From the NCBI RefSeq assembly GCF_036347135.1, contig NZ_CP108938.1, forward strand, positions 6,014,001 through 6,078,000: DNA of 64,000 nucleotides, written 5' to 3'. Every line of letters begins with the position of its first letter. The stretch's first letter is position 1. The notes below the pieces were generated by a model. That model saw only the letters and a program-made list of their open reading frames with translations, searched no databases and was not told where the DNA came from. The position numbers and the translations under genes were made by a program. Positions 19,440 to 60,589 of the stretch are shown here, piece after piece. This DNA comes from Streptomyces sp. NBC_00775. GTDB lineage: Bacteria > Actinomycetota > Actinomycetes > Streptomycetales > Streptomycetaceae.

Positions 19440-21015
19440 GACCCGACGGCCGCGCGTCCTGAGCGGTCCCGGGTCGCCCCGAAAACCGTTCGCGCAGCTT
19501 GTACTTGAGTACCTTCCGCAGCGTCTCGTTCCGCGGAAGGGCGTCCACCACCTCCAACTGCTCCGGCAGCTTGTGCACGGACAGCCCTTCCGCGCGCAGA
19601 TACGAGACGACGGCGTCCAGGGTCAACCGCCCGGCCCCCGGCGGCTGTTCCGCCGCCTCGATCACGGCACAGACCCGTTCCCCGCGCTCGGCGTCCGGCA
19701 GCCCGATCACGGCGACATCGCCGACGGCCGGGTGCTGGTGCAGCAGGTCCTCGATCTCCTTGGCGGAGATGTTCTCGCCCTTGCGGATGATGATGTCCTT
19801 CAGGCGCCCGGTCAGGACGAGATGCCCGCTCTCCGTCAGATGCCCGACGTCTCCGGTGATCAGGAACCCGTCCGCGTCGAAGGCCGCGGCGGTCTGCCCG
19901 GGGTCCAGGTACCCCTGGCAGACGGCCTCGCCCCGCAGCCGTACCTCCCCGTCGACGCCGTACGGCCGAGCCGCGCCCTTCCCGTCCACGACCCGTATCT
20001 CCATGCCCTCGGGCGGCCTGCCCTCCGTCGTCGCCAGGTTCTCGGCCGTGTCGTCCGGCGCCCCCATCGTGATCATCGGGACCTCGGTCATCCCGTACCC
20101 GTGGGTGAGCTGCACCCCCATCTCCCGTACGACGCAGTGGTAGACCTCGGGCGGCTTCGGGGCCCCGCCGCCCGCGAGCAGCCGCAGCGTCGGAATGACC
20201 GGCTTCCCGGGCTGCTTGCGCTGCTCGGCGAGGAACATCGAGTAGAAGGCCGTGGAGCCGCCCGCCACCGTCACCCCGTGCCTGCGGTAGCCGTCCAGGG
20301 CGGCGGGCAGCGCGAAGTGCTCGAACATCACGGCCGGGAAGCCGTACAGCAGCAGCATCACCGTGTAGTCCGGTCCGGCGATGTGCGCGTACGGGAAGGC
20401 CATCGAGCCCACGTCGTCGGCCGACAGGTGCAGCGCATGCGCGAGGCACGAGCCGCCCGCGATCAGTGAACGGTCCGTGTGCAGTACGCCCTTGGGGTCG
20501 GAGGTGGTGCCGGAGGTCCAGTAGATCCAGCGGACCGAGGTGCCCTCGGAGGGCGGGGCGGGCAGCACGGCGGGGTCGCCGTCCGGCAGCCTGTCGTACG
20601 CCTCGAAGACGCCCTTCGCGCCGAGCCGCCGCGCCATCGCCGTGTGGTCGAAGCCGCGCCACTCGCCCGGTACGGCGAAGTACTCGGCCTTGGACTCCCG
20701 TAGCGCGAAGCCGACTTCGCGGTCGCGGTAGAAGGGGATGACCGGGGACTGTACGGCGCCGAGACGGGCCAGCGCGAAGGACAGCAGCGCGGTCTCGATA
20801 CGGGTGGGCAGCTGCCAGGCGACCACGGTGCCGGGGCGGACGCCCATGTCGTAGAGGCCCGCCGCCACCCGCTCGGCGCGGGAGCGCAGTTCGCCGAAGC
20901 TCAGGGAGCGGTCGTCCTGGAGGAGGACGGGCCGGTCTGGGGTGAGGTCGGCGCGGCGCGCGACCAGTTCCCACAGCGTGCGCGCGGACCCCAGGGCGTG
21001 TGCGGTGTCGTTCAC
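19423..21015 (-). CDS. AMP-forming acyl-CoA synthetase
   Basis: 530 residues from GTG 21015. Adenylate-forming motifs are clear: the P-loop YWTSGTTSDPKGVLHT, HGYGMTEVPM, the ITGDVGHLTESGHLVLTGRL hinge region, and the C-terminal catalytic lysine in RNETLRKVLKYKLRE. It activates a carboxylic acid to its CoA thioester via an acyl-adenylate. GTG 21015 is chosen because CAGGGGGTT precedes it; an upstream ATG at 21129 would run through the regulatory palindromes. A 19-bp palindrome lies 14 bp upstream. It is divergent from the amidohydrolase-dehydrogenase operon, with which it probably shares control. Confidence 0.9.
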   Translation of the reverse strand: MNDTAHALGSARTLWELVARRADLTPDRPVLLQDDRSLSFGELRSRAERVAAGLYDMGVRPGTVVAWQLPTRIETALLSFALARLGAVQSPVIPFYRDREVGFALRESKAEYFAVPGEWRGFDHTAMARRLGAKGVFEAYDRLPDGDPAVLPAPPSEGTSVRWIYWTSGTTSDPKGVLHTDRSLIAGGSCLAHALHLSADDVGSMAFPYAHIAGPDYTVMLLLYGFPAVMFEHFALPAALDGYRRHGVTVAGGSTAFYSMFLAEQRKQPGKPVIPTLRLLAGGGAPKPPEVYHCVVREMGVQLTHGYGMTEVPMITMGAPDDTAENLATTEGRPPEGMEIRVVDGKGAARPYGVDGEVRLRGEAVCQGYLDPGQTAAAFDADGFLITGDVGHLTESGHLVLTGRLKDIIIRKGENISAKEIEDLLHQHPAVGDVAVIGLPDAERGERVCAVIEAAEQPPGAGRLTLDAVVSYLRAEGLSVHKLPEQLEVVDALPRNETLRKVLKYKLRERFSGRPGTAQDARPSGPTPAP

Positions 21016-21028
21016 TTCAACCCCCTGT

Positions 21029-21047
21029 AACTGACGGACAGTCAGAT
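21029..21047. promoter_or_regulatory. Regulon palindrome, copy 1
   Basis: AACTGACGGACAGTCAGAT, 14 bp upstream of the acyl-CoA synthetase start at 21015. It fits the window-wide consensus AWCTGACGGNCCGTCAGWT. Confidence 0.7.
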
Positions 21048-21115
21048 CGTGGCAGAGCGTAGGGCTCGCCGCCTTGTCGGTCCATAGGCGCGGGGCTAGC
21101 CTGCTGGGAACAGGG

Positions 21116-21134
21116 ATCTGACGGGCCATCAGAT
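21116..21134. promoter_or_regulatory. Regulon palindrome, copy 2
   Basis: ATCTGACGGGCCATCAGAT, in the same divergent region, 91 bp upstream of the amidohydrolase start at 21225. Confidence 0.7.
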
Positions 21135-21224
21135 GCGTCGTTCACGTGCCACGCGTTCGCCGTTCACGTGCCACGCGCCCGTCGGGTACGTCCACCGCAC
21201 ACGTACGCCAGGCGGAGGGGAACC

Positions 21225-22412
21225 ATGACCGAACTGCCCCGCATCATCAGCGTCGACGACCATGTGATCGAGCCCGCGCACCTCTTCGAGACCTGGCTGC
21301 CGCGGAAGTACCGCGAGCGCGGGCCGCAGCCCCTCACCGCCGGAATCGGTGAACTCGCCTACGTGGGCGGCAAATACCGGATCACGATGGATCCGGACGG
21401 TCCGCCCACCGACTGGTGGGTCTACGAGGGCCTCAAGTTCCCGTACAAGCGCAACATCGCCGCCGTCGGCTTCGACCGCGACGAGATGACGCTGGAGGGC
21501 ATCACGCGCGCGGAGATGCGGCCCGGCTGCTGGGACCCGGCCGAGCGCCTCAAGGACATGGACCTCAACCACGTCGAGGGCAGCCTCTGCTTCCCCACCT
21601 TCCCGCGCTTCTGCGGGCAGACGTTCGCCGAGGCGCACGACAAGGAAGTGGCCCTGGCCTGTGTGCGCGCGTACAACGACTGGATGGTCGAGGAGTGGTG
21701 CGGCGACAGCGGCGGGCGGCTGATCCCGCTGTGCCTGATCCCGCTGTGGGACATCGGCCTGGCGGTCGCCGAGATCCGCCGCAACGCGGCCCGGGGCGTG
21801 AAAGCCGTGACCTTCTCGGAGATCCCCACCTATCTGGGGCTGCCCTCGATCCACTCCGGCTACTGGGACCCCTTCTTCGCGATCTGCCAGGAGACCGGCA
21901 CGGTCGTGAACATGCACATCGGCTCGTCGTCGCAGATGCCCGCCGCCTCGCCCGACGCACCGCCCGCCGTACAGGCCTCGCTCAGCTTCAACAACGCGAT
22001 GGCCTCGATGATGGACTTCCTGTTCAGCGGGGTACTGGTGAAGTTCCCGCGCCTCAAACTCGCCTACTCCGAAGGGCAGATGGGCTGGATTCCGTACGCC
22101 CTGGAGCGCGCCGACGACGTCTGGCAGGAGCACCGCGCCTGGGGCGGGGTCCGCGACCTCATCCCCGAGCCCCCGTCGACGTACTACTACCGGCAGATCT
22201 TCTGCTGCTTCTTCCGCGACAAGCACGGCGTGGCGTCCCTGGACGTGGTCGGCTGCGACAACGCCACCTTCGAGACCGACTACCCGCACGTCGACTCGAC
22301 CTTCCCGCACACCAAGGAGGTCGCCCTCGACCATGTGAAGGGCCTCGACGACGAGACGGTCTTCAAGCTGATGCGCGGCAACGCGATCCGCATGCTGGAC
22401 CTGGACCTGTAG
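21225..22412 (+). CDS. Amidohydrolase-2 family protein
   Basis: 395 residues. The N-terminal metal motif ISVDDHVIEP is that of the amidohydrolase_2 (ACMSD-like) group. Other conserved pieces are GSLCFPTFPRFCGQTF, GRLIPLCLIPLWD, a metal histidine in VVNMHIGSSS, and the C-terminal metal aspartate in VGCDNATFETDYPHVDST. Such enzymes hydrolyse or decarboxylate ring-derived acids and often sit beside acyl-CoA dehydrogenases. ATG 21225 has GGAGGGGAACC upstream. Its stop TAG overlaps the next GTG by one base, so this is an operon. Confidence 0.88.
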   Translation: MTELPRIISVDDHVIEPAHLFETWLPRKYRERGPQPLTAGIGELAYVGGKYRITMDPDGPPTDWWVYEGLKFPYKRNIAAVGFDRDEMTLEGITRAEMRPGCWDPAERLKDMDLNHVEGSLCFPTFPRFCGQTFAEAHDKEVALACVRAYNDWMVEEWCGDSGGRLIPLCLIPLWDIGLAVAEIRRNAARGVKAVTFSEIPTYLGLPSIHSGYWDPFFAICQETGTVVNMHIGSSSQMPAASPDAPPAVQASLSFNNAMASMMDFLFSGVLVKFPRLKLAYSEGQMGWIPYALERADDVWQEHRAWGGVRDLIPEPPSTYYYRQIFCCFFRDKHGVASLDVVGCDNATFETDYPHVDSTFPHTKEVALDHVKGLDDETVFKLMRGNAIRMLDLDL

Positions 22413-23566
22413 TGGATCTCGCGGACACGACCGAGGAGGAGGAGTTCCGGGCGCGGCTGCGCGAGTGGCTCGCCAAGGTGCTCCCCTCGCTGCCCCCAAA
22501 GCCGTCCCCGGACGACTGGCCGGGCAGACGCGCGTACGACCTCGGCTGGCAGCGGATGCTGTACGACGCCGGGTACGCCGGTCTGCACTGGCCCGTCGAC
22601 GCGGGTGGCCGGGGCGCCACCCCGACACAGCACCTCATCTACCTGGAGGAGACGGAGAAGGCGGGCGCCCCCTACGTAGGGGCCAATTTCGTCGGGCTGC
22701 TGCACGCCGGGCCGACCATCGCCTCCGAAGGGAGCGCCGAACAGCGGGCGCGCTGGCTGCCGCCCGTGCTGCGCGGCGAGGAGGTCTGGTGCCAGGGCTT
22801 CAGCGAACCGGACGCCGGCTCGGACCTCGCGGCGCTGCGCACGCGCGCGTGGAGGGACGGCGACGACTACGTAGTGAGTGGGTCCAAGATCTGGACCTCC
22901 CACGCGGAGGTCGCGGACTGGTGCGAACTGCTGGTCCGGACGGATCCCACCGCCCCCAAGCACCGCGGCATCTCCTGGCTCGCGATGCCCATGGACGCGC
23001 CGGGGATCACCGTCCGGCCGCTGCGGACGCTCGCGGGCTCCACCGAGTTCGCCGAGGTCTTCCTCGACGAGGCGCGCATACCGGTCGCCAACCGTGTCGG
23101 CGCCGAGAACGACGGCTGGCGGGTGACCATGGTGACCCTGTCGTACGAGCGCGGTACCGCCTTCGTCGGAGAGGTCGTCGCCTGCCGCCGCGTGCTCGGC
23201 GACATCGCCCGTGAGGCGCGCGGGAACGGCCGCTGGGACGATGCCGTACTGCGCCGCCGTCTCGGCAGGCTGAACGCCGAGTTCCGGGCGCTGTGGCGGC
23301 TCACGCAGTGGAACGTCAGCGAGGCGCAACGCACCGGGGGAGTGCCCGGCGTCGGCGGCTCGGTCTTCAAGCTGCGGTATTCGCACGCCCGCCAGGAGCT
23401 GTACGACGCCGCCGCCGAGGTCCTCGGCCCCGAGGCGCTCGACCTGGGGCGGGAGTGGACCCTCGACCGGCTGTCGTCCCTGTCGTACACCATCGCGGCC
23501 GGCACCTCGCAGATCCAGCGGAACATCGTGGCCGAGCGGATCCTGGGCCTTCCGAAGGGACGGTGA
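22412..23566 (+). CDS. Acyl-CoA dehydrogenase, alpha-type subunit
   Basis: 384 residues with a full ACAD fold. The N-terminal helical domain is followed by the flavin/acyl segment WCQGFSEPDAGSDLAALRTR, then SKIWTSHAEVADW and the C-terminal signature AAGTSQIQRNIVAERILGLP. At the position of the MCAD catalytic Glu (YEGT) this protein has Ala (AAGT), as in isovaleryl-CoA dehydrogenase-type enzymes where the base comes from another helix. It probably pairs with the following shorter ACAD as an alpha2beta2 enzyme, as FadE28/FadE29 do in mycobacterial side-chain oxidation. Confidence 0.9.
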   Translation: MDLADTTEEEEFRARLREWLAKVLPSLPPKPSPDDWPGRRAYDLGWQRMLYDAGYAGLHWPVDAGGRGATPTQHLIYLEETEKAGAPYVGANFVGLLHAGPTIASEGSAEQRARWLPPVLRGEEVWCQGFSEPDAGSDLAALRTRAWRDGDDYVVSGSKIWTSHAEVADWCELLVRTDPTAPKHRGISWLAMPMDAPGITVRPLRTLAGSTEFAEVFLDEARIPVANRVGAENDGWRVTMVTLSYERGTAFVGEVVACRRVLGDIAREARGNGRWDDAVLRRRLGRLNAEFRALWRLTQWNVSEAQRTGGVPGVGGSVFKLRYSHARQELYDAAAEVLGPEALDLGREWTLDRLSSLSYTIAAGTSQIQRNIVAERILGLPKGR

Positions 23567-23576
23567 GCTCTCCCAA

Positions 23577-24473
23577 GTGGACTTCCAACTCACGGACGAT
23601 CAGTGGGCGTTGAAGAGGGGCGTGCGCGAGCTGCTGACCGCGCGCTTCGGCCCCGACGAGCTGCGGGCCGCCGCCGGCGCCGGGTCGCCGGACCTCGACC
23701 GGGCGCTGTGGCGAGAGCTCGGCGAGGCGGGCTTCTTCGCGCTGCGGCTGCCGGAGGCGGACGGCGGGGTCGGACTCGGCCTCCCGGAAGCGGTGCTGGC
23801 CTTCGAGGAGGCGGGCCGCGTGCTGCTGCCCGGCCCGCTGATCGCGACCCACCTCGCGGCGGGCGCGGTGGACGGGGCGGCCACGGGAGAGGCCGTGGTG
23901 ACCGCCGTCGACGGGGTACTGGTGGAGTGGCTGGACCAGGCCGACGCCGTACGAGGGGACGCGACCGGCGCCGAGCCGCTGAGGTCGGTGGACCCGCTGA
24001 CTCCGGTGCACCGGGTGCCCGCCGCCGTGTCGCCAGGGGCCGACCCCGAAGCCGTACTCCTCACCTCGCTCCTCACGGCAGCCGAACAGCTCGGCACCGC
24101 CGCCCGTACCTGCGAGCTGGCCGTGCAACACGCCCGGACGCGGGAGCAGTTCGGGCAGCCGATCGGGGCCTTCCAGGCGGTGAAGCACCTGTGCGCGCAG
24201 CTGCTGGTGCGGGTGGAGGTGGCGCGTGCGGCCGTCTACGCGGCCGCTGTGACCGCCGACCCGGTGGATGTCGCGGCGGCCCGGCTGCTCGCCGACGAGG
24301 CCGCCGTGCGCGGCGCCCGCGACTGCCTCCAGGTGCACGGCGGCATGGGCTTCACCTGGGAGTCCGAGGTCCATCTGTTCCTCAAGAGGGCATGGCTGCG
24401 GACGCAACGTACGGGCGGCGACACGGAGAGTGACGAGCTGCTGGCCGACGATCTCCTCGCCGGGATGGGCTGA
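23577..24473 (+). CDS. Acyl-CoA dehydrogenase, short beta-type subunit
   Basis: 298 residues from GTG 23577, 10 bp after the alpha gene. It is shorter than usual (about 380). The middle beta-barrel is reduced (around residues 110-165), while the N-terminal helices (MDFQLTDDQWALKRGVRELL) and the C-terminal signature LQVHGGMGFTWESEVHLFLK are kept. This is the pattern of the non-canonical subunit in heteromeric ACADs. It should complete the FAD and substrate pocket of the preceding protein. Confidence 0.9.
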   Translation: MDFQLTDDQWALKRGVRELLTARFGPDELRAAAGAGSPDLDRALWRELGEAGFFALRLPEADGGVGLGLPEAVLAFEEAGRVLLPGPLIATHLAAGAVDGAATGEAVVTAVDGVLVEWLDQADAVRGDATGAEPLRSVDPLTPVHRVPAAVSPGADPEAVLLTSLLTAAEQLGTAARTCELAVQHARTREQFGQPIGAFQAVKHLCAQLLVRVEVARAAVYAAAVTADPVDVAAARLLADEAAVRGARDCLQVHGGMGFTWESEVHLFLKRAWLRTQRTGGDTESDELLADDLLAGMG

Positions 24474-25831: not shown

Positions 25832-26758
25832 CTACAGCAGGGCGACCGGTGCCACCGGTGTGCCCGTGCCGCCCACGAAGGGTTCGGGCATCGCCGACAG
25901 CAGGAAGGTGTAGTGCCCCTCTTCTCCACAGGCTGTGGACAACTTTTCGAGATTCCAGTTCTGGCCCTGCAGCATCCCCATCTCGACCAGGTCGAGCGCG
26001 TGCACGGGCAGCCACAGATCCTCGATCTCGGGCGGAAAGATCTCGAACGTGAGGGTGTCGTTCGCGACCGCCGCGACATCGCGCGCGTGGAACCACTCCG
26101 GGGTGCGCACGGACAGTCCGGGCGACGGATACGCGTACCCGTGTGCGTCACCGGCGAGATACACCTGGATCTGCCCCGTCCGTACGAGGACGATGTCGCC
26201 GGCCCGCACCCGCGCACCCGCCAACTCCTCGGCCGCGTCCAGGTCTTCGGGCGTCACGGCGTGCCCGCCCTCCAGCCGCTCGACACCCCGCGCCCGCGCG
26301 ACGTCGAGCAGTACACCGCGCGAGACGATGTGCCGCGGCTTGTCGATGCCGCTGAACTCGGCGCCGCCGTGCGGGGTGACCGTGTCGGCCGGGCGGCCGT
26401 TGTAGAGCTTCCCGGAGTGCGAGACATGGGTGAGCGCGTCCCAGTGGGTCCCCGCCTGGAGCCCCATGGTCACCGCGTCGTCGCTGCACGCGACCGTGCC
26501 CGGCCCGAAGATCTCCTGGTTGATCTGCACCATGGCGTGCAGCGGATTGACGCGCCCGGGGATCATGCCGGTCTGTACGCCGTCGTGCTGGAGCGGGAGC
26601 GCGAGCGGGACGCGGCGCCCGCTCCGGATGCAGGCCGCGGCCTCCCGTACGACCTCGTCGGTGATGAGATTCAGTGTCCCGATCTCGTCGTCGGACCCCC
26701 AACGCCCCCAGTTGTTGACGCGCTTGGCGATCTCGTGGAACTCGGCCGGCAGTGACAT
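25832..26758 (-). CDS. Cyclase family protein (kynurenine-formamidase-like hydrolase)
   Basis: 308 residues. The metal-binding signature is present as LQAGTHWDALTHVSHSGKLY, matching the cyclase family HxGTHxDxxxH pattern with the first His replaced by Gln. Other conserved blocks are NNWGRWGSDDEIGTLN at the N-terminus and AGDIVLVRTG in the middle. Members hydrolyse cyclic or N-formyl substrates; this longer group is often found in actinobacterial catabolic clusters. ATG 26758 has GGGGAGGAC upstream. A regulon palindrome copy begins 30 bp upstream. Confidence 0.85.
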   Translation of the reverse strand: MSLPAEFHEIAKRVNNWGRWGSDDEIGTLNLITDEVVREAAACIRSGRRVPLALPLQHDGVQTGMIPGRVNPLHAMVQINQEIFGPGTVACSDDAVTMGLQAGTHWDALTHVSHSGKLYNGRPADTVTPHGGAEFSGIDKPRHIVSRGVLLDVARARGVERLEGGHAVTPEDLDAAEELAGARVRAGDIVLVRTGQIQVYLAGDAHGYAYPSPGLSVRTPEWFHARDVAAVANDTLTFEIFPPEIEDLWLPVHALDLVEMGMLQGQNWNLEKLSTACGEEGHYTFLLSAMPEPFVGGTGTPVAPVALL

Positions 26759-26787
26759 GAGTCCTCCCCGGGGGCTTGTCTCCAGGT

Positions 26788-26806
26788 ATCTGACGGGTCG
26801 TAGAAT
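26788..26806. promoter_or_regulatory. Regulon palindrome, copy 3 (one half degenerate)
   Basis: ATCTGACGGGTCGTAGAAT. The left half is perfect and the right half is weak. It starts 30 bp upstream of the cyclase gene start. Confidence 0.55.
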
Positions 26807-26815
26807 CCGAGTTGA

Positions 26816-26834
26816 ATCTAACGGACCGTCAGAA
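26816..26834. promoter_or_regulatory. Regulon palindrome, copy 4
   Basis: ATCTAACGGACCGTCAGAA, ending 20 bp before the SDR start at 26855. Its centre is 28 bp from that of copy 3, in the divergent promoter. Confidence 0.65.
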
Positions 26835-26854
26835 ACTGCGGGAAGGGGCCGGGC

Positions 26855-27766
26855 GTGGGGAACTTCTTGGCAGGCAAGGTCATCGCCGTCACGGGGGCTG
26901 GGCGGGGGATCGGCCGTGCCGTGGCGCTGGCCGCGGCAGCCGAGGGCGCGCGCGTCGTCGTCAACGACTACGGCGTCTCCATCGACGGCGCCGAGCCGAC
27001 GAGCTCGATCGCCGACGCCGTCGTCAAGGAGATCGAGGCGGCGGGCGGCGACGCGGTCGCCGTCGCCGACGACATCTCGACGATGGCGGGCGGACAGCGG
27101 GTCGTCGACACCGCGCTGGCGTCGTACGGACGGATCGACGGCGTGGTGTGCGTGGCCGGGATCCTGCGCGAACGGATGCTTTTCAACATGACCGAGGAGG
27201 AGTGGGACCCGGTCGTCGCCACCCACCTCAAGGGCACGTTCACGCTCTTCCGGGCCGCCTCCGCGGTGATGCGCAAGCAGGGCTCGGGGACGCTGATCGG
27301 CTTCACCAGCGGCAACCATCAGGGGTCCGTCTCCCAGGCCAACTACAGCGCGGCCAAGGGCGGGATCATCTCGCTCGTCCGCAGCGCGGCGCTGGGACTG
27401 CACAAGTACGGGGTGACGGCGAACGCGGTCGCACCGGTCGCCCGCACCCGGATGTCGGCCAACGTCCCCATGGAGCTCAAGGAGATCGGCGAGCCCGAGG
27501 ACGTCGCCGCGCTGGTGGTGTACCTGCTCTCCGAGCGTGCGCGGGAGGAACGGATCACCGGGCAGGTGTACACCATCGCCGGACCCAAGATCGCGGTGTG
27601 GGCGCAGCCGCGGGAGCTGCGGGCGGGGTATGCGGAGGGGGTCTGGACGCCGGAGCGGATCGCGGACTTTCTGCCGGGGACGGTGGGGGTGGATCCGATG
27701 CCGTTGCTGGAGGGGGTGGAGGCGATGGCTCGGGCTGCGGGGGAGGGGGCGCGGCCCAATGCGTAG
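26855..27766 (+). CDS. Short-chain dehydrogenase/reductase (hydroxyacyl-CoA dehydrogenase type)
   Basis: 303 residues. The NAD(P) motif is TGAGRGIGRAV (residues 13-23), followed by NDYGVSIDG, VCVAGILRERML in place of NNAG, the catalytic Ser in FTSGNHQ, and YSAAK. The length and DYG segment resemble the dehydrogenase domain of peroxisomal multifunctional enzyme 2 and actinobacterial beta-oxidation SDRs. It likely oxidises a 3-hydroxyacyl-CoA. GTG 26855 follows GGAAGGGGCC. The next gene on the strand is an acyl-CoA dehydrogenase beyond a long repeat. Confidence 0.9.
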   Translation: MGNFLAGKVIAVTGAGRGIGRAVALAAAAEGARVVVNDYGVSIDGAEPTSSIADAVVKEIEAAGGDAVAVADDISTMAGGQRVVDTALASYGRIDGVVCVAGILRERMLFNMTEEEWDPVVATHLKGTFTLFRAASAVMRKQGSGTLIGFTSGNHQGSVSQANYSAAKGGIISLVRSAALGLHKYGVTANAVAPVARTRMSANVPMELKEIGEPEDVAALVVYLLSERAREERITGQVYTIAGPKIAVWAQPRELRAGYAEGVWTPERIADFLPGTVGVDPMPLLEGVEAMARAAGEGARPNA

Positions 27767-28040: not shown

Positions 28041-28049
28041 AACGCGAAG

Positions 28050-29228: not shown

Positions 29229-29238
29229 GGGAGTCGCG

Positions 29239-33732: not shown

Positions 33733-33751
33733 AGCTGACGGGGTGTCAGAT
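33733..33751. promoter_or_regulatory. Regulon palindrome, copy 5
   Basis: AGCTGACGGGGTGTCAGAT, directly upstream of the flavin reductase gene. Both half-sites CTGAC and GTCAG are intact. Confidence 0.7.
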
Positions 33752-38097: not shown

Positions 38098-38116
38098 AAC
38101 TGACGCAGTGTCAGAT
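38098..38116. promoter_or_regulatory. Regulon palindrome, copy 6
   Basis: AACTGACGCAGTGTCAGAT, 35 bp upstream of the ADP-forming acyl-CoA synthetase start. Confidence 0.7.
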
Positions 38117-38121: not shown

Positions 38122-38140
38122 AACTGACGCCGTGTCAGGA
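38122..38140. promoter_or_regulatory. Regulon palindrome, copy 7
   Basis: AACTGACGCCGTGTCAGGA. Its centre is 24 bp from copy 6, so two dimers could bind in tandem. Confidence 0.68.
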
Positions 38141-41234: not shown

Positions 41235-41446
41235 GAGCGCGAGCGTAATCACGTCCTCACTTGATAGGTCTCGGTCAAGACCGGAATCGGTTGCGAACTG
41301 ATCACGGCTGTAGGAGGAGTGGGTGGGACTGGTGGCGTAGGTCACTTGGTTGTGGCGGGGGCGTGGAGGAGAGGGCGCGTACGCCTCACGCGGCGGCGGG
41401 GAGTCGGCGGTGTACGCCTCTTGCGCCGGTGTGTCTCCGTGCGCTG

Positions 41447-41465
41447 AACTGACGTACCGTCAGAT
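41447..41465. promoter_or_regulatory. Regulon palindrome, copy 8
   Basis: AACTGACGTACCGTCAGAT, ending 25 bp before the DoxX start at 41491. It is one of the most symmetrical copies. Confidence 0.75.
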
Positions 41466-48723: not shown

Positions 48724-48742
48724 ATCTGACGGTACATCAGAT
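48724..48742. promoter_or_regulatory. Regulon palindrome, copy 9
   Basis: ATCTGACGGTACATCAGAT. It begins 2 bp upstream of ATG 48721, or 62 bp upstream of ATG 48661. Confidence 0.72.
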
Positions 48743-48796: not shown

Positions 48797-48815
48797 ACAT
48801 GACGGCCCGTCAGAT
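48797..48815. promoter_or_regulatory. Regulon palindrome, copy 10
   Basis: ACATGACGGCCCGTCAGAT, ending 26 bp before the ACAD start at 48842. Confidence 0.7.
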
Positions 48816-51919: not shown

Positions 51920-52567
51920 TTACTTCGTCGGCTTCTTGCCGGTTACGCCGAGGTGCACCAACAGCGCGAGATTCGGCTTGAGTTCAGCCTGCTTGACGCC
52001 CCACGTCTGGAAGCCCTTCTGGTGCGAGGCCACCGCCGCGAGCATGGCGACAAGGGAACCGGCCATCGCCGCCGGGTTCACGTCCTTGTCGACCTTGCCC
52101 TTGGACTGGAGGTCGGTGACCGTGTCCGTAAGGGAGTTGTTCACGGAGTTCAGGATCTTCATACGGATCTTGTAGAACCGCTTGTCGCCCTCGGCGGCGC
52201 CCAGATCGACGACCCGCAGGATCGCGTCGTTCCTGCGCCAGAACTCCAGGAAGCCGTCGACGAGTTCCTGCGCGGTCTGCCAGCCGGCCTTGCCGACCCA
52301 GGAACGCCCTTCGAGCAGCTGGGTCAACCCGGCGCCCTCCGCGGCCATTTGCTCGGCGATCTCCAGGACGGCGCCTTCGACGTCCGGGAAGTACTGGTAG
52401 AAGGTCGCGGGCGAAGTCCCCGCCTTCCGGGCGACATCAATGACTTTGACGTCCCGGTAGGGCGAGGAGCTGAGCATCTCGCTGAGGCAGTCGAGCAGCT
52501 TCTGCCGAGTCGCCTGCCCACGCCGTCCGGCCACGCGGCCGTCGACGGTACGCACTTGTCCTGTCAT
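51920..52567 (-). CDS. TetR-family transcriptional regulator; candidate regulator of the palindrome regulon
   Basis: 215 residues. The N-terminal HTH covers residues 15-65 (RRGQATRQKLLDCLSEMLSS, DVKVIDVARKAGTSPATFYQ, YFPDVEGAVLEIAEQM). The helical ligand domain follows (AQELVDGFLEFWRRNDAILR). TetR repressors release DNA on binding a ligand, often an acyl-CoA in catabolic regulons. An imperfect copy of the 19-bp palindrome covers its own ATG, supporting autorepression and a role over the eleven catabolic starts. No other TetR gene occurs in the window. The link to the distant sites is inferred. Confidence 0.85.
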   Translation of the reverse strand: MTGQVRTVDGRVAGRRGQATRQKLLDCLSEMLSSSPYRDVKVIDVARKAGTSPATFYQYFPDVEGAVLEIAEQMAAEGAGLTQLLEGRSWVGKAGWQTAQELVDGFLEFWRRNDAILRVVDLGAAEGDKRFYKIRMKILNSVNNSLTDTVTDLQSKGKVDKDVNPAAMAGSLVAMLAAVASHQKGFQTWGVKQAELKPNLALLVHLGVTGKKPTK

Positions 52568-52577
52568 GCCGTCAGCT
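52559..52577. promoter_or_regulatory. Imperfect regulon palindrome over the TetR start codon
   Basis: On the minus strand it reads AGCTGACGGCATGACAGGA. The left half is perfect and the right half differs by one base in the core (GACAG for GTCAG). It spans ATG 52567. Confidence 0.5.
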
Positions 52578-52755
52578 TACCGAGGGGTGATCGGAGCGCG
52601 ATTCGGCCGACTGCAAATGGGGTGTGGCCGTTCGGCGCGAGGGTACGCAGGGGGTTCACGAGGGTGCACGGGAGAGATTCACGAGCGTTTCCGGGGTTCA
52701 CGGGGGTGGGTGCCTCTGCTCTGCGGGATGCGTGAAGGGCCGTTAGCTTGGCCGC

Positions 52756-53796: not shown

Positions 53797-56127
53797 GTGG
53801 TGGATCAGCTGACGCAGCACGATCCGCGGCGGATCGGGCCGTTCGAGGTGCTGGGACGGCTGGGTGCCGGCGGCATGGGGCTGGTCTATCTCGCGCGCTC
53901 GGCTTCCGGCCGGCGCGTGGCGATCAAGACGGTCAGGACGGAGCTCGCCGAGGACCAGCTGTTCCGGGTCCGCTTCTCGCGTGAGGTCGAGGCGGCCCGC
54001 GCCGTGTCCGGCTTCTACACGGCGGCCGTGGTCGACGCCGACGCGCGCGCCGCGGTGCCGTGGCTGGCCACCGCGTATGTGCCCGCGCCCTCGCTGGAAG
54101 AAATAGTGAATGAGTGCGGGCCGATGCCGGCCCAGGCGGTGCGCTGGCTGGCGGCGGGCGTCGCGGAGGCCCTCCAGTCGATCCACGGCGCGGGTCTCGT
54201 CCACCGTGACCTCAAGCCCTCCAACGTCCTCGTCGTCGAGGACGGACCGCGCGTGATCGACTTCGGCATCGCGTCCGGCGTCTCGAACACCCGCCTGACC
54301 ATGACGAACGTCGCCGTCGGTACGCCCGCGTACATGTCCCCCGAGCAGGCCAAGGACTCGCGCAGCGTGACCGGCGCGAGCGACGTCTTCTCGCTGGGAT
54401 CGATGCTGGTGTTCGCCGCGACCGGCCACGCGCCCTTCCATGGCGCGAACCCGGTCGAGACGGTGTTCATGCTGCTGCGCGAGGGCCCGGACCTCGAAGG
54501 CCTGCCCGCCGAGCTGCGCCCGCTCATCGAGTCCTGCATGCAGATGGAGGCGACGGCGCGCCCCAACCCCGCCGACCTCCAGGCCCAGCTCGCGCCCCAC
54601 CTCTTCGGCTCCGGCTCCGACGACAGCGGTACGGCGTCGGCGTGGCTGCCCGAGCGGGCGGTGGGCCTGATCGAGACGCGCCGCGGCGGCCGTCCGCCCG
54701 TGAAGCCCTCCTCCGGGGGGAGTGGACGGAGCGGTGGGGGGCGCGCGCCTGTGCCCGCACCCCCCTCGCACGCGCCTGTGCCCGTGGGGGCGCCCGACAC
54801 CGGTCCCGTGCGCCTCGCGGGCGCCCAGGTGCCCATCGGCCCCGGCCCGCGCGTCGCGGACGCCCGCGCGGCCGCCGTGAAGGCGCCCCCTCCGGAAGCC
54901 GGGCTCGCGGCGTCCTGGTCCCGGCCGCGCGCCGGCGTGAACGGTGCCGATCCGGCGCCCGCGCCCACCGTCGCGCCCCCCGCGCCCGATTCACCCTCCG
55001 GCTGGCGCCCCTGGCGCTTCCGAATGTCCAACGACGTCTGGGGTACGCCCTCGGTCGCCGGCGACCTCGTCTACGTCACCTCCTTCGAAGTCCACGCCCT
55101 CGACGTCGCGACCGGCCGGCGCCGCTTCAAGACGCGCGACGTGGCGTGGTCGATGGCGGTCGCGGACGGCCGTATCCACGCCTCGGACGGCCCCACGCTG
55201 TTCGCGCTGGACGCCCGCGAGGGAGGCGACCTCTGGCGCCTGTCGACGGACGCCTGGGTGTACTCGCTCAAGGCCGACCGGGGGACGGTCGTCACCGGCA
55301 CGCGCGGTGGCGGAGTCCAGGCGTGGGAGGCCTCCAACGGCCAGAAACTCTGGGAGCTGACCGGCGCCCAGACCGACTTCGAGTCCCCGGAGGCCGGCCC
55401 CGCCATCCACGACGGCACGGTGTACGTCTGGAAGGACGCCCGGCTGCGCGCCCTGGAGGCCCGTACCGGTGAGGAGCGCTGGTCGTACCCGATCGGCGAC
55501 GCGGCCTCCTGCGGCGGCGTCCCGGTCCGTCTGACCCAGGCGGCCGACGGCTACGTCTACGTCTCCGCCGGCACCCGCGTCCTCGCCGTCGACGTGGCGA
55601 GCGGGCACGTCCGCTGGCACTTCGAGGCCCCGGCGGTCTTCCTCTGTCCGCCCACCTTCGCGCCGGGCCCGGCGGTGACGGGCGGCGGCGTGTACCTGGC
55701 CGACTACCTCGGCACGGTCTACGCCCTCGATGCCACCGACGGCCGCGACCGCTGGCGCATCGCCACCGAGTCCCGCGCCTCCATCGAGCCGGTGCTTGTG
55801 GCCGCCGGGCACGTCCACGTCGGCAGCGGCAAGGGTCTGTACACCCTCGACGCCGTCACCGGCACACCGAAGTGGCGCTTCCAGGCCGGCGGCGACCTCG
55901 TCGGCGCCCCCGCCGTCGCCGACGGCCGCATCCACTTCGGCTCCACCGACCATCTCCTGTACACCCTGAAGTCCGACGACGGACGACTCCGCTGGAAGCT
56001 GGCGACCGGGGGTGAGATCACCGGGGCTCCGGTGGTCAAGGACGGGGTGGTGTACGCGTGCAGCAAGGATCGGTGCGTGTACGCGCTGGACGCGGAGAAG
56101 GGGACGGGCACGGCTCGCACGACGTGA
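53797..56127 (+). CDS. Ser/Thr protein kinase with C-terminal quinoprotein-like beta-propeller (AfsK-like)
   Basis: 776 residues. The kinase domain covers residues 10-270: glycine loop [14 protein letters not shown], Lys in [17 protein letters not shown] and DFG ([10 protein letters not shown]), then [15 protein letters not shown] linker of about 130 Pro/Ala/Gly-rich residues follows, then seven PQQ-type blades ([37 protein letters not shown]). There is no transmembrane helix, as in AfsK. It phosphorylates protein Ser/Thr, with the propeller sensing an unknown signal. GTG 53797 has GGAGG 10 bases upstream. Confidence 0.92.
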
Positions 56128-56429: not shown

Positions 56430-57206
56430 TCACCGCAGCCGGAAGCCGGGGCGGCGGGCCGTGAACAGCCCCGCCTGCCGTTCCCCCGGCAGATTCCCGA
56501 GCGACACGAGCTGCGGCGCATGCGCGAGCGCCTGCGCCCGAGCCGCCTCCTTGGCCAGCCACAACGCCCGCACCGTCCCCTGCACCGCCTCCACCGGATA
56601 CGAGGCGATGACAGCGGCACAATCGACGGCCGCCCCCAACGCCGCACCGGGCGCAGTGAGTTCCGACACCAGCCCCACCTCGTACGCCCGCCGCGCCGAC
56701 ACCCGCTCGGCCGTCCCCATCAACGCCATCCGCGCCACCTCCCCGAACGGCATCCGCTGCGCCATGTAGATCGACTCGTACGCGCTGACCATCCCGTACG
56801 TCGTATGCGGGTCGAAGAAGGTCGCCGCTTCGTCGGCCACCACGAACTCCGCCTCGCCCAGCAGATAGAAGGCACCCCCGCAGGCGATCCCGTTCACGGC
56901 GGCGATCACGGGCTTCCACAGGTCGTTCGCCTTCGGCCCGATCGCGACGAGCGGATCGTCCACCATGTAGGGGGAGCCGGGCTGCGGCACGACGACGTCC
57001 CGGTCGATCCCCGTACAGAACGCCCGCGTGCCCGCCCCGGTGATGACGACCGCCCGTACGGTGTCGTCGAACCGGAACTCCCGCCAGGCGGCCGCGAGTT
57101 CGGCGGCCGTGTCGAGGTCGATGGCGTTGAGCTTCGCGGGCCGGTCGAGGGTGAGGACGGCGACGCCGGTGTCCTTGTCGGCGGTGACGCGCAGCCCGTC
57201 GCTCAC
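56430..57206 (-). CDS. Enoyl-CoA hydratase/isomerase family protein
   Basis: 258 residues. Crotonase features: VLTLDRPAKLNAIDLDTAAE, oxyanion segments GAGTRAFCTGIDRDVVVPQP and AAVNGIACGGAFYLLGEAEF, and DEAATFFDPHTTYGMVSAYE. The usual catalytic Glu pair is not obvious; Glu and Asp residues in GEAEF and FFDPH are candidates. It belongs to the thiolase-DUF35-crotonase operon and starts with GTG 57206, which overlaps the DUF35 stop by 4 bp. The reaction is hydration or isomerisation of an unsaturated acyl-CoA. Confidence 0.88.
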   Translation of the reverse strand: MSDGLRVTADKDTGVAVLTLDRPAKLNAIDLDTAAELAAAWREFRFDDTVRAVVITGAGTRAFCTGIDRDVVVPQPGSPYMVDDPLVAIGPKANDLWKPVIAAVNGIACGGAFYLLGEAEFVVADEAATFFDPHTTYGMVSAYESIYMAQRMPFGEVARMALMGTAERVSARRAYEVGLVSELTAPGAALGAAVDCAAVIASYPVEAVQGTVRALWLAKEAARAQALAHAPQLVSLGNLPGERQAGLFTARRPGFRLR

Positions 57207-57727
57207 GGCCGCTCCAGAACCCAGCGGGGCACGGCCACACCGTTCACCTCGGCGAACACCACCTGCACCCGCGCCCCGATCCGGATCCGTTCCTGCGGGA
57301 CGGAGTTGAGCGCCTCACCGGCACCGCTCACCAGATTCCCCACGAGCCGAATCCGGGGGGCGTCCGCCAGCTCCACCACGATCGCGTTGTACGGGGCCTG
57401 CTCCGCGTAGGCGGGAAGCAGCGGCGGATGCGGGATGACGAACGACCAGACCCTCCCCCTGCCGCTCATCTCCCGCCATTCGCTCGCGAAGGAGTGGCAG
57501 TGCGGGCAGCAGGGCCGGGGCGGAAAGCGCAGCTCGCCGCAGCCGGCGCAGGACTGGATCCGGAGTTCGCCTCGGGCCGCGTACTCCCAGAAGGGGGCGC
57601 CGTCGTCGTCGGGGACGGGCGAGAGAAGGGACTGGTCCGAGGTCGTGGCGTGAGTGGCGTTCGTGGTGCTCGTAGCGTTCGTGGCATTCGTGGTGCTCGT
57701 AGCGTTCGTGGAGTTGATGGTGGTCAT
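57203..57727 (-). CDS. DUF35 OB-fold/zinc-ribbon protein with Asn/Thr-rich N-terminus
   Basis: 174 residues. The first 32 are Asn, Thr and Ser rich (NATSTTNAT twice), coded by a 24-bp direct repeat. From residue 33 the protein is a normal DUF35: PFWEYAARGELRIQSC, zinc ribbon CAGCGELRFPPRPCCPHC, OB fold GRVWSFVIPHPPLLPAYAEQ, and PYNAIVVELADAPRIRLVGN. It partners the thiolase-fold protein encoded 12 bp upstream in a retro-aldolase-like complex. The stop overlaps the crotonase GTG. Confidence 0.88.
   Translation of the reverse strand: MTTINSTNATSTTNATNATSTTNATHATTSDQSLLSPVPDDDGAPFWEYAARGELRIQSCAGCGELRFPPRPCCPHCHSFASEWREMSGRGRVWSFVIPHPPLLPAYAEQAPYNAIVVELADAPRIRLVGNLVSGAGEALNSVPQERIRIGARVQVVFAEVNGVAVPRWVLERP
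57661..57711 (-). repeat. 24-bp direct repeat inside the DUF35 N-terminus
   Basis: The same 24-bp sequence occupies 57661-57684 and 57688-57711. The 27-bp period gives the repeated nonapeptide NATSTTNAT. Confidence 0.85.
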
Positions 57728-57739
57728 GGCGGCGGCTCC

Positions 57740-58888
57740 TCAGGCCCGGAGTAGAAGCGCGGACGTCGGTACGCCCTCACCCGCCGTGACCAGGCAGGTG
57801 GCGGCGCCGGGGACTTGGGCCGTACTGGTCCCGCGCAGTTGCTTCACGCCCTCGTTGATCAGGTTGAAGCCGTGCACGTACGCCTCGCTGAGCCCGCCCC
57901 CGCCGGTGTTGACGGGCAGCCGCCCGCCGATCTCCAGCGCGCCGCCCTCCGTGAAGGCCGCGCCTTCCCCTCTCCCGCAGAAGCCGTATCCCTCAAGGGA
58001 GAGCGGTATGAGAGGCGTGAACGCGTCGTAGATCTGTGCCACATCGACATCGTCCGGTGTGAAGTCGGCGTGTTTCCACAGGTGTCGGGCGGCGGTCCAG
58101 GCGGGGCCGGTGAGCGGGTCGTCGTTCCAGTAGTTGACCATGCCGTGGTGCTGGGCGGGCAGGCCCTGGGCGGCGGAGTGGACGTAGACGGGGCGTCGGC
58201 GGCAGTCGCGGGCGCGCTCGGCGGAGACGATCACGCAGGCCAACGCCCCGTCCGTCTCAAGGCAGTTGTCGAAGAGGCAGAGGGGTTCGCTGATCCAGCG
58301 GGAGGTCATGTACATCTCGCGGGTCAACGGCCGCTCGTACATGATCGCGGCCGGGTTCTGGTTGGCGCGGTTCCGGCAGGCGAGGGCGACGTTGAAGAGG
58401 TGGTCGCGGGTGGCGCCGTACTCGTGCATGTAGCGGCGCGCGAGCATGCCGATCTCGTCGGCGGGCCGGAGGAGGCCGAAGGGGCGGGTCCACTGGGCGG
58501 GAGTGGGGAGTTGGACGCTGGTGTTCTTCCACGGCCGGGGCCCGGACCCGCGCTTCCGCGACCGCCAGGCCACCCCCACCGTCGCCTGCCCGCCGGCGAT
58601 GGCGGCGGCGAGATGCGCGACGGTGGCGCAGGATCCGCCCCCGCCGTACCCGACCTTGCTGAAGAAGGTGAGGTCGCCCAGACCGACGGCCTTGGCCACC
58701 TCCACCTCGTCCGTCTCCTCCATGGTGTAGGAGGCGAGCCCGTCGACCTCGGCTGGTGCGATCCCGGCGTCGTCGAGGGCGGCGAGGATCGCCCGACAGG
58801 CCAAGGCCTTCTCGGATTCGGGGAGTTGTTTGGCGAAGGGGGTCTGCCCGATCCCGACGACGGCTGTGGCGTCCTTGATCCCCGGCAT
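57740..58888 (-). CDS. Thiolase-fold lipid-transfer protein (Ltp2-like)
   Basis: 382 residues. The sequence starts MPGIKDATAVVGIGQTPFAK, with GLASYTMEETDEVEVAKAVG, TFFSKVGYGGGGSCATVAHL, VDVAQIYDAFTPLIPLSLEG and LPVNTGGGGLSEAYVHGFNL. It lacks the thiolase nucleophilic Cys pattern and matches SCP2-thiolase/Ltp proteins that carry out retro-aldol cleavage with DUF35 partners. It is the first gene of a three-gene operon (thiolase, DUF35, crotonase). A regulon palindrome lies 28 bp upstream of ATG 58888. Confidence 0.9.
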   Translation of the reverse strand: MPGIKDATAVVGIGQTPFAKQLPESEKALACRAILAALDDAGIAPAEVDGLASYTMEETDEVEVAKAVGLGDLTFFSKVGYGGGGSCATVAHLAAAIAGGQATVGVAWRSRKRGSGPRPWKNTSVQLPTPAQWTRPFGLLRPADEIGMLARRYMHEYGATRDHLFNVALACRNRANQNPAAIMYERPLTREMYMTSRWISEPLCLFDNCLETDGALACVIVSAERARDCRRRPVYVHSAAQGLPAQHHGMVNYWNDDPLTGPAWTAARHLWKHADFTPDDVDVAQIYDAFTPLIPLSLEGYGFCGRGEGAAFTEGGALEIGGRLPVNTGGGGLSEAYVHGFNLINEGVKQLRGTSTAQVPGAATCLVTAGEGVPTSALLLRA

Positions 58889-58915
58889 GGGTGCACCTCC
58901 ACAGAAGGTCCCGGC

Positions 58916-58934
58916 TGCTGACAGGGCGTCAGGC
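58916..58934. promoter_or_regulatory. Regulon palindrome, copy 11
   Basis: TGCTGACAGGGCGTCAGGC, 28 bp upstream of the thiolase start. The CTGAC and GTCAG halves are intact. Confidence 0.65.
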
Positions 58935-58942
58935 TACAGCTA

Positions 58943-58961
58943 ATCTGACGGTCAGTCAGCT
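58943..58961. promoter_or_regulatory. Regulon palindrome, copy 12
   Basis: ATCTGACGGTCAGTCAGCT, ending 29 bp before the acyl-CoA synthetase start at 58991. Its centre is 27 bp from that of copy 11. Confidence 0.7.
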
Positions 58962-58990
58962 AGTGTGCTTGGGCCGGTGGGAGGCGGGCG

Positions 58991-60589
58991 ATGCGCGGAG
59001 ACCTGGAGTGGGGCGGCATCCCGGGACTGGTGCGGTCGGCGGCGACGCGGTTCGCGGATCGGGAGGCGGTCGTCGAGGGCCGTACACGAGTGTCATACGC
59101 CGAGTTGGGCGCCCGCGTGGAACGTGCGGCGGCGGCCTGCGTCGCGAACGGGGTACGGCTCGGCGACCGCGTCGCCATCTGGGCGCCGAACACCCTCGAC
59201 TGGATCGTCTCGGCGCTGGGCGCGGTGTCGGCGGGGGCGGTGCTGGTGCCGCTGAACACGCGGTTCAAGGGCACGGAGGCGGCGTACGTCCTCTCCCGGA
59301 GCCGGGCGAAACTGCTGTTCGTGACGGGGACCTTCCTGGGGACGTCGTATGTGGCGTCGCTGCGGCGGGCCGCGGGGGAGGGACAGGGGGAGGGGGAGGG
59401 GAAGGGCGCCGGCCCGCTCCCGGGCCTCCCGCACCTGGAACAGGTGGTCGTCCTCGCGGACGACGCCCCCGCCGACTTCCGTACCTGGAAGGACTTCCTG
59501 GCGAGCGGGGAGGGCGTGGGAGCGGAGGAGGTACGGCAGCGGGGGGACACCGTGTCCGGCTCCTGCGCCTCGGACATCATCTTTACGTCGGGCACGACGG
59601 GCCGCCCCAAGGGCGCCCTGATCACCCACGCCCAGACACTCCGCGGCTACGAGATCTGGAGCGACCTCGCGGGCCTGCGCGAGGGCGACCGCTACCTGAT
59701 CGTGAACCCCTTCTTCCACACCTTCGGCTACAAGGCGGGCATCGTCGCCTGTCTGATGCGCGGCGCGACGATGATCCCGCAGCCGGTGTTCAACGTGGAC
59801 ACGGTGCTGGCGAACGTGGCGTCGGAGCGCATCTCGGTCCTCCCGGGCCCGCCCACCCTCCACCAGTCACTCCTGGACCACCCCTCCCGCGACGCGTACG
59901 ACCTCTCGGCGCTCCGTCTGGTGGTGACGGGAGCGGCGGTGGTTCCTCTGCGCCTGGTGGAACGCCTGAAGTCGGAGCTGAAGATCGACACGGTCCTGAC
60001 GGCGTACGGACTGTCTGAGGCGAGCGGCATCGTCACGATGTGCCGCCGGGGTGACGAGGCGCAGGTGATCGCCTCGACTTCGGGCCGGGCGATCCCGGAC
60101 ACGGAGATACGGGTCGAGGCGGCCCTCGGCTCCCCGGGCGAGGTCCTGGTCCGCGGATTCAACGTCATGCAGGGCTACTTCGAGGATCCGGACGCCACGG
60201 CGACGGTCCTCGACGCCGACGGCTGGCTGCACACGGGCGACGTCGGCGTCCTCGACGACGCCGGCAACCTCCGTATCACCGACCGCATCAAGGACATGTT
60301 CATCGTCGGCGGCTTCAACGCCTACCCCGCCGAGATCGAGCAACTCCTCGGCCTGCACCCGGATGTGGCCGACGTCGCGGTGATCGGCGTACCGGACGGC
60401 CGCCTGGGCGAGGTGGGCAAGGCGTACGTGGTCCGCCGGGCGGGGGCCGTACTGACCGCCGACGACCTCATCGCGTGGTCTCGGCGCGAGATGGCGAACT
60501 ACAAGGTGCCGCGGATGGTGGAGTTCGTGGGGGAGCTGCCGCGGAACGCGAGCGGGAAGGTGGTGAAGGGGGAGTTGCGGGGACAGTGA
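58991..60589 (+). CDS. AMP-forming acyl-CoA synthetase (FadD3-like)
   Basis: 532 residues. The P-loop is FTSGTTGRPKGALITHAQTL, with FHTFGYKAGIVACLMRGATM, AYGLSEASGIVTMC, WLHTGDVGVLDDAGNLRITD, DMFIVGGFNAYPAEIE, and the catalytic Lys in RNASGKVVKGELRG. The overall likeness is to FadD3-type ligases that activate steroid ring-derived acids, so it may start the pathway of this cluster. A 10-residue Glu/Gly insertion (AAGEGQGEGEGKGAG) sits near residue 130. ATG 58991 has GGGAGGCGGGCG upstream. Confidence 0.9.
   Translation: MRGDLEWGGIPGLVRSAATRFADREAVVEGRTRVSYAELGARVERAAAACVANGVRLGDRVAIWAPNTLDWIVSALGAVSAGAVLVPLNTRFKGTEAAYVLSRSRAKLLFVTGTFLGTSYVASLRRAAGEGQGEGEGKGAGPLPGLPHLEQVVVLADDAPADFRTWKDFLASGEGVGAEEVRQRGDTVSGSCASDIIFTSGTTGRPKGALITHAQTLRGYEIWSDLAGLREGDRYLIVNPFFHTFGYKAGIVACLMRGATMIPQPVFNVDTVLANVASERISVLPGPPTLHQSLLDHPSRDAYDLSALRLVVTGAAVVPLRLVERLKSELKIDTVLTAYGLSEASGIVTMCRRGDEAQVIASTSGRAIPDTEIRVEAALGSPGEVLVRGFNVMQGYFEDPDATATVLDADGWLHTGDVGVLDDAGNLRITDRIKDMFIVGGFNAYPAEIEQLLGLHPDVADVAVIGVPDGRLGEVGKAYVVRRAGAVLTADDLIAWSRREMANYKVPRMVEFVGELPRNASGKVVKGELRGQ

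Follow-up and report, generated by a model that had tools for sequence, protein, structure and literature searches.

A conserved palindrome upstream of acyl-CoA catabolic genes in Streptomyces and the TetR-family protein that probably recognizes it

Introduction

The 64,000-nucleotide stretch considered here (positions 6014001-6078000 of the 11.1-Mb single-contig genome of Streptomyces sp. NBC_00775; hereafter the window) contains scattered acyl-coenzyme A (acyl-CoA) catabolic operons preceded by copies of a 19-bp palindrome, together with the gene of a TetR-family regulator of 215 residues (51920-52567, - strand; Pfam TetR_N, PF00440, and TetR_C_38, PF19352). This gene sits one gene from that of the AfsK serine/threonine kinase, which is a landmark and not a target (53797-56127, + strand; NCBIfam equivalog NF053615, 1498 bits against a cut-off of 1300). 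An earlier note had listed twelve copies of the palindrome before eleven catabolic gene starts and had attributed them to a single repressor. The comparative sequence analysis described below indicates that the regulon is real, conserved and of a known, TetR-type kind, and makes it very likely that the palindrome is the operator through which the window TetR would repress these operons.

The palindromic sites and the genes behind them

The first two targets diverge from each other. An AMP-forming acyl-CoA ligase gene (19423-21015, - strand; Pfam PF00501) has a predicted operator at 21029-21047 (one mismatch to the pattern AWCTGACGGNCCGTCAGWT, 29.1 bits), and an operon for a DitZ-like amidohydrolase, an acyl-CoA dehydrogenase (ACAD) and an ACAD-like protein (21225-24473, + strand; Pfam, the amidohydrolase matching DitZ, PDB 8uyr, at E 5e-58) has one at 21116-21134 (one mismatch, 28.6 bits). 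A predicted operator at 26816-26834 (two mismatches, 27.2 bits) lies between a cyclase gene (25832-26758, - strand) and the gene of a short-chain dehydrogenase/reductase (SDR; start at 26855, + strand), a divergent pair assigned with Pfam and extending over 25832-27766, and a weaker copy is found beside it at 26788-26806 (four mismatches, 12.2 bits). Single predicted operators stand before a flavin reductase gene (33094-33702, - strand; Pfam), at 33733-33751 (three mismatches, 23.3 bits), and before the genes of a DoxX/MauE-like protein and a DUF35 (ChsH2-domain) protein (41491-42377, + strand; Pfam), at 41447-41465 (one mismatch, 30.6 bits). The ADP-forming acyl-CoA ligase gene located between them (35838 to about 38063, - strand; Pfam, PDB 9y43 and 8wzu) has a predicted operator at 38098-38116 (three mismatches, 26.1 bits) and a second, moderate copy at 38122-38140 (five mismatches, 16.7 bits). 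A third divergent region separates the gene of a thiolase-fold protein (47486-48661, - strand; PDB 4u4e, E 1e-96, then 9myr, E 1e-54) from an ACAD gene (48842-50044, + strand; best match PDB 6wy8_A, Tcur3481, E 2e-29), with predicted operators at 48724-48742 (two mismatches, 30.3 bits) and 48797-48815 (two mismatches, 23.0 bits), a pair that has a similar counterpart in Streptomyces scabiei (locus L243). In the fourth, a predicted operator at 58943-58961 (two mismatches, 27.3 bits) stands between an operon for a thiolase (57740-58888), a DUF35 protein and an enoyl-CoA hydratase (56430-58888, - strand; Pfam, with PDB 6ok1_A matched at E 4e-100) and another AMP-forming acyl-CoA ligase gene (58991-60589, + strand; Pfam), next to a doubtful copy at 58916-58934 (six mismatches, 11.7 bits).

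Allowing up to three mismatches, the pattern finds nine matches in the window, as opposed to a mean of 0.06 and a maximum of one in shuffled sequence; none of the nine fits it perfectly, and all belong to the twelve copies listed earlier, which are all intergenic (genic and intergenic calls were made with a simple gene caller). A matrix trained on 16 sites beyond the window ranks the same nine first, at 20.8-30.3 bits, directly followed by 26788 (14.2 bits) and 38122 (13.5 bits), which may be regarded with moderate confidence as operator copies. Under this matrix 58916 obtains 10.0 bits and falls under two genic matches; since the best score in 100 simulated windows averages 10.9 bits (largest 20.9), this copy cannot be separated from chance by score and is doubtful as an operator, even with its arms CTGAC/GTCAG intact.

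Each of the eleven genes named in the earlier note is indeed preceded by one or more of the nine strong sites, and the gene types were confirmed with Pfam, apart from the DoxX-like gene, which matches MauE only and under the cut-off. The gaps between site and start, given before as 14-62 bp, measure 13-62 bp, the exception being 21116, which lies 90 bp from the start that our caller places for the amidohydrolase gene. An arrangement of one site per gene applies to the 21029/21116 and 48724/48797 pairs, whereas in the other two divergent regions one of the two copies is weak. The interleaved amine oxidase, MFS, LysE, GNAT and methyltransferase genes of the window have no upstream site above 12 bits, as had been claimed; a weak match at 43268, scoring 10.9 bits (7.9 under the outside-trained matrix), stands directly before a GNAT gene.

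Conservation and distribution of the sites

The conservation of the sites was assessed with reciprocal-best orthologues in five motif-rich Streptomyces relatives (G013, G093, G106, G036 and G115), a site being counted when it exceeded 16 bits and lay no more than 260 bases before or 40 bases after the start. The eleven target genes have 48 orthologues in these genomes and 46 of them carry a site, as against two of the 68 orthologues of 20 interleaved control genes, both belonging to the same flavin monooxygenase (FMO-like) gene (Fisher test 2e-27, the orthologues of related genomes not being independent). Taken gene by gene, a site precedes 4/5 orthologues of the ligase at 19423, 4/4 of the amidohydrolase, 5/5 of the cyclase and 4/4 of the SDR, 5/5 of the flavin reductase, 4/5 of the ADP-forming ligase, 2/2 of the DoxX-like gene, 5/5 each of the thiolase at 47486 and the ACAD at 48842, and 4/4 on both sides of 58943. 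An AfsR-like control has a site in one of three orthologues, and second genes of operons in 2 of 20. Among three targets located directly beyond the window, two keep their sites (4/4 each), and the first luciferase-like gene shows none (0/4). The difference between target and control orthologues argues for a single regulon.

In the entire genome, up to three mismatches yield 55 places, compared with four for the reversed pattern, and up to two mismatches yield 16, compared with none in the control. None of the 16 lies inside a gene. Catabolic genes stand behind 14 of them, half of which belong to the window, and the other two have non-catabolic neighbours. Among the 34 places listed with three mismatches (50 of the 55 places were listed and read), 20 lie outside called genes, three of them overlapping gene ends, and 14 lie inside, where about 19% of the fetched sequence of this genome is non-coding according to the same caller. 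For a number of the 20, the gene that follows has no evident catabolic role, and these places may be due to chance. Both outcomes that the earlier note had named as fatal to the regulon, matrix hits as frequent inside genes as upstream and sites not conserved before orthologues, are contradicted by these data.

Across 150 sampled Streptomyces genomes, the number of sites with up to two mismatches is bimodal: 103 genomes have 8-24, nine have 4-7 and 38 have 0-3 (motif-poor). The regulon would accordingly be found in some two thirds of the sampled members of the genus. In seven of the motif-poor genomes, the 40 kb around the TetR gene hold one target orthologue out of 98 possible (14 genes in seven genomes) and keep many of the interleaved neighbours (AraC 6/7, MFS 5/7, FMO 7/7, AfsK 6/7), so that catabolic genes and their sites appear for the most part to come and go as one. 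The sites left in motif-poor Streptomyces occupy 63 places in 33 genomes; in the 30 that were read, one per genome (14 intergenic, 16 genic), no recurring gene was found that could be a shared core target. Some low-count genomes nevertheless retain sites that look genuine; G089, for example, has two, both less than about 25 kb away from its TetR gene, and one of these is a variant of 26816.

Enzymes and the probable pathway

The thiolase encoded at 57740, a MaoC-DUF35 hydratase encoded beyond the window and the dehydrogenases all have steroid side-chain degradation proteins as their closest solved structures. The best match of the thiolase, 6ok1_A, is presumably Ltp2 of Thermomonospora curvata; the MaoC-DUF35 protein matches ChsH1 and ChsH2 (4w78/4wnb) and the DUF35 chain 6ok1_B; and the ACADs match Tcur3481/Tcur3483 and 4x28, which we take to be ChsE, the first ACAD of the 21225 operon matching 6wy9, 6wy8 and 4x28 at E 2e-55 to 2e-52. 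An igr-type set of aldolase, hydratase and dehydrogenase (Ltp2, ChsH1/H2 and ChsE type) is present as judged by sequence comparison only. The amidohydrolase is closest to DitZ, a name that we assume to come from a diterpenoid pathway. The side-chain beta-oxidation proposed in the earlier note hence agrees with the relatives of the thiolase, hydratase and dehydrogenases, but less well with the amidohydrolase, and the enzymes suggest the catabolism of polycyclic isoprenoids or of steroid fragments.

A broader alternative would be the complete degradation of a steroid (cholesterol or bile acid), with the window TetR taking the place of KstR in Streptomyces. In addition to the solved relatives just mentioned, it is favoured by an ipdA homologue located in a C/D-ring-like cluster of this genome, 60% identical to a Frankiales protein and with matches in all seven other Streptomyces tried (all motif-rich), and by the corresponding genes being found under the new motif in Frankiales metagenome-assembled genomes (MAGs). 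However, no HsaC-type dioxygenase (TIGR03213) exceeds the cut-off in this genome (best score 69 bits against 366; genome G290 reaches 384), for which reason whole steroid degradation is unsupported, though the relatives G013 and G014 score 261 and 289 bits. Moreover, the ipd cluster itself has no site above 12 bits. In 55 of the 57 Streptomyces genomes covered by a published survey, no steroid pathway was found (PMC4810484), to be compared with the 103 of 150 that have at least eight sites here. On balance, this alternative is unlikely.

The cluster in question (ipdABC-echA20 type; C1:8054001-8074000, locus L334) includes a separate TetR gene (TetR_C_24), presumably KstR2-like from its gene order, and no exact CAAGNNCTTG core was found in the stretch.

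The probable regulator

The window TetR was found in 149 of the 150 Streptomyces genomes and is 91% identical to its S. scabiei counterpart. Such near universality means that its distribution within the genus cannot identify the regulator and, with 38 genomes having 0-3 sites, that it would not be a dedicated regulator of the regulon there. It had even been set aside on this ground, a decision overturned by its profile across the class and by the gene neighbourhoods in Actinomadura and Frankiales.

In a class-level sample of 296 genomes, TetR was searched for in all 18 non-Streptomyces genomes with at least three sites and in 52 chosen site-free genomes, those with one or two sites being excluded. 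Of the 18 motif-bearing genomes, 16 have a strong homologue (E below 1e-26; some alignments were partial, one owing to a contig end), as does one of the 52 site-free genomes. When one family of genomes, f13, is left aside, the former proportion is 11 of 13. In families f14 and f18 (11 loci), the TetR gene is preceded by a site scoring 13.6-22.2 bits; 3.6% of random stretches exceed 13 bits, motif-bearing loci being among those sampled. Sites near TetR are weaker in the five f13 loci (9.9-15.6 bits) and reach 16.1 and 17.9 bits in the two Actinomadura loci.

The neighbourhoods provide a direct link between this protein and the targets. Genes for TetR, an ADP-forming ligase and an amidohydrolase stand in this order, each with a site before it, in two species of Actinomadura, A. 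nitritigenes and A. xylanilytica; the A. nitritigenes ligase is 64% identical to that behind 38098 in the window, and the amidohydrolase 73% identical to the window protein. In Frankiales MAGs, whose loci were read in two sets with some genomes in common, TetR adjoins an SDR gene divergent from genes of the hydratase (NCBIfam NF005925), two CoA-transferase (Pfam CoA_trans) and nitronate-monooxygenase (Pfam NMO) types, again with sites. We take these four to be echA20-ipdA-ipdB-ipdC. On this comparative evidence, the window TetR is probably the regulator; the claim of one repressor for all operons is supported as regards one regulon and one TetR, which would presumably act by repression.

The protein itself is consistent with this role. 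Residues 9-64 are identical in 30 of 30 proteins from motif-rich genomes, most of them picked for similarity to that of the window. In the first seven proteins from motif-poor genomes the DNA-binding domain averaged 99.7% identity; 20 more, including the most divergent, gave 88-100% (mean 94.6%) over residues 9-64, too low for the domain to be called almost frozen. Together, these sets cover 26 distinct genomes of the 38 (one occurs in both), and in all 26 the stretch GTSPATFYQYF is kept, with the ligand domain (residues 65-150) down to 49% identity. The same stretch is invariant in the 16 proteins of an alignment (A1) from which L208 (contig end) and L212 (the one site-free genome with a strong homologue, its helix reading TSPGTFYHYF) were excluded. 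The predicted structure is all-helical (mean pLDDT 89, from a 19-row alignment), and EthR entries lead its fold matches (TM 0.74-0.80 at 17-18% identity), which supports an EthR-like fold and nothing more specific.

A candidate weak auto-operator, AGCTGACGGCATGACAGGA on the - strand (52559-52577, 8.7 bits), overlies the TetR start codon. It lies 160 bases before the codons of TSPATFYQYF, as does the stronger Actinomadura site AGCTGACGGTATGCCAGAA. The approximately 60 bp before the start (about 52555-52640 of the window), which include CCCCATTTGCAGTCGGCC, are nearly invariant in 74 loci, 73 from Streptomyces and one from Actinomadura, and the mRNA may be leaderless.

Several observations weigh against the assignment. 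The auto-operator of the Streptomyces gene is weak and, because the element is also kept in motif-poor genomes, it may simply be a conserved -10/start region. Besides the 38 Streptomyces genomes with few or no sites, two of the 18 motif-bearing genomes outside the genus have only weak TetR matches (G291, 68% complete, and G293, 93% complete), and weak matches (E 1e-8 to 1e-12) occur in four site-free genomes; such matches do not enter the co-occurrence counts. G139, the sole Streptomyces genome without a TetR match, has eight sites; its gene may be absent from the assembly only, a draft of 1010 contigs that is 98% complete. Five sites above 16 bits persist in two of the seven motif-poor 40-kb stretches, and two of the 16 best sites of the genome have no catabolic gene behind them (C1:7250356 and C1:9584620). 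The former precedes a gene for a secreted protein; the latter lies near genes that we believe to be SRPBCC-like and DeoR-like.

Some of these points would also fit a regulon that is real but controlled by another regulator, TetR-like or of another family, the window TetR being a bystander with a related operator. The near universality of TetR whatever the site count, its weak site and the case of G139 speak in this direction, and the genome encodes at least 150 TetR-like proteins (150 matches were scored) as candidates. Against it stand the class-wide co-occurrence of TetR and motif, the sites upstream of TetR outside Streptomyces, and the direct linkage to target genes in Actinomadura and Frankiales, which make the bystander explanation quite improbable.

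Family f13 deserves separate mention because its genomes have 25-129 sites each. In G230, with 129 at up to two mismatches, 16 stretches were read (L349-L364), 15 around the closest matches and one around TetR: of 28 sites above 20 bits, 13 are genic and 15 intergenic, and 10 of the latter have a stop codon no more than 40 bp away. A giant regulon was rejected on these grounds. The f13 sequence, CTGAC-N-GTCAG, probably represents some other palindrome, which may be terminator-like or peculiar to the genome, and for this reason the co-occurrence was given with and without this family. That the window palindromes are likewise hairpins, terminators or a dispersed repeat is highly improbable, since in their own genome only three of 24 sites above 20 bits (window and 12 other loci) have a stop codon at 40 bp or less, and the sites stand before gene starts with a conservation that tracks the target genes.

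Comparison with known systems

The regulon resembles that of KstR in Mycobacterium, which comprises lipid-degradation genes under an autoregulated TetR-type repressor; its palindromic operator occurs in numerous intergenic regions, frequently ones that separate divergent genes (PMC1995591). In agreement with the earlier note, the sites, which fit ATCTGACGGNCCGTCAGAT, are unlike both the KstR operator, TnnAACnnGTTnnA (same source), and the operator of KstR2, the TetR repressor of the lower steroid pathway, given as AAGCAAGNNCTTGCTT in PMC8228715. In a PDB sequence search, KstR chains match the window TetR weakly and in the helix-turn-helix (HTH) region only (E 0.16-0.2), and, unlike KstR, the Streptomyces TetR is kept where its regulon is absent. 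The likeness to KstR2 lies in the Frankiales MAGs, where the new motif precedes echA20-ipdABC-like genes. The echA20-ipdABC-like cluster of the present genome has its own TetR gene and no new-motif site above 12 bits. EthR of M. tuberculosis, the best fold match, shares HTH similarity (E 4e-6) with the window TetR but differs in overall sequence, and it controls a different regulon.

From its position near afsK, the window TetR is of the SCO4421 type. SCO4421 of S. coelicolor is, according to the consulted part of PMC3878966, which gives neither targets nor an operator for it, a TetR gene close to afsK that is expressed during sporulation, has lower expression in a whiA mutant and was deleted without a detected phenotype. 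SAV3818 is named in PMC3742746. A long protein encoded 5 kb beyond the window (L041) appears to resemble AfsR. We take SAV3818 to be the SCO4421 orthologue. Among the papers listed from the PMC open-access literature, subscription papers lying outside the scope of the search, none was recognised as a description of the operator or of the regulon.

Proposed mode of action and significance

In the model that we infer, the window TetR would act as a homodimer of EthR-like fold that occupies the 19-bp operators, in most cases 13-62 bp ahead of a start codon, and silences the dispersed acyl-CoA catabolic operons. The C-terminal domain would accommodate an intermediate of the pathway, most likely the acyl-CoA thioester of a polycyclic isoprenoid, whose binding would free the operators, and the operons would then supply acyl-CoA ligases, dehydrogenases, hydratases, thiolase-DUF35 pairs of the retro-aldolase type and DitZ-like hydrolases.

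A wider proposition, on which we are evenly divided, is that a near-universal Streptomyces TetR, spore-expressed in S. coelicolor, runs a come-and-go network of polycyclic-isoprenoid catabolism, its operons inserted between core genes around afsK-afsR and elsewhere. Operons and operators would be gained and lost together, with the regulator staying in place, its recognition helix kept and its ligand domain diverging; in Frankiales, the same TetR would have taken over ring-C/D (ipd-type) genes of the KstR2 type. As the regulator is kept where the operons are lost, it would have a second duty in Streptomyces. Targets and an operator are in this way proposed for a regulator that nearly all sampled Streptomyces possess and whose S. 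coelicolor member showed no detected phenotype on deletion. About a quarter of the sampled genomes keep it without the regulon, and the Frankiales loci hint at an exchange of regulators between steroid-type pathways of different actinobacterial orders.

Further targets and neighbouring genes

The regulon is larger than described in the earlier note, as 13 further promoter regions beyond the window carry sites with up to three mismatches and repeat the enzyme kinds found inside it; some assignments were made by reading the sequence. The candidate targets are a further amidohydrolase; two monooxygenases of the luciferase-like type, with genes for an Amidohydro_3 protein and an aldehyde dehydrogenase behind the second; an SDR whose divergent neighbour has no Pfam match; a divergent pair made up of an amidohydrolase and a DoxX-like gene; an ACAD with the MaoC-DUF35 protein; a DUF35-thiolase pair; an AMP-forming ligase; another protein that Pfam does not recognize (L063); the substrate-binding protein of a transporter; another SDR; a third luciferase-like protein; and an ACAD fusion. 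Outside these regions, an enoyl-CoA hydratase gene has a site with four mismatches.

Inside the window, the FMO-like gene (40029-41345) points away from the DoxX-DUF35 operator on the opposite strand. Two of the five motif-rich relatives have a site close to it, and the gene is also present in seven of seven motif-poor ones. An ACAD-alcohol dehydrogenase gene pair (28050-30288), downstream of the SDR gene on the same strand and without a site of its own, was found in 5/5 motif-rich and 0/7 motif-poor relatives, and may be transcribed from the SDR promoter by read-through.

Finally, sites at C1:7249696 and 7250356 (L061) and at 6466275 (L067) precede genes of secreted-looking proteins without Pfam matches, which may be true non-enzyme targets. 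The site strings of these loci, compared as strings only, recur in identical or nearly identical form in G013, G114 and G096.

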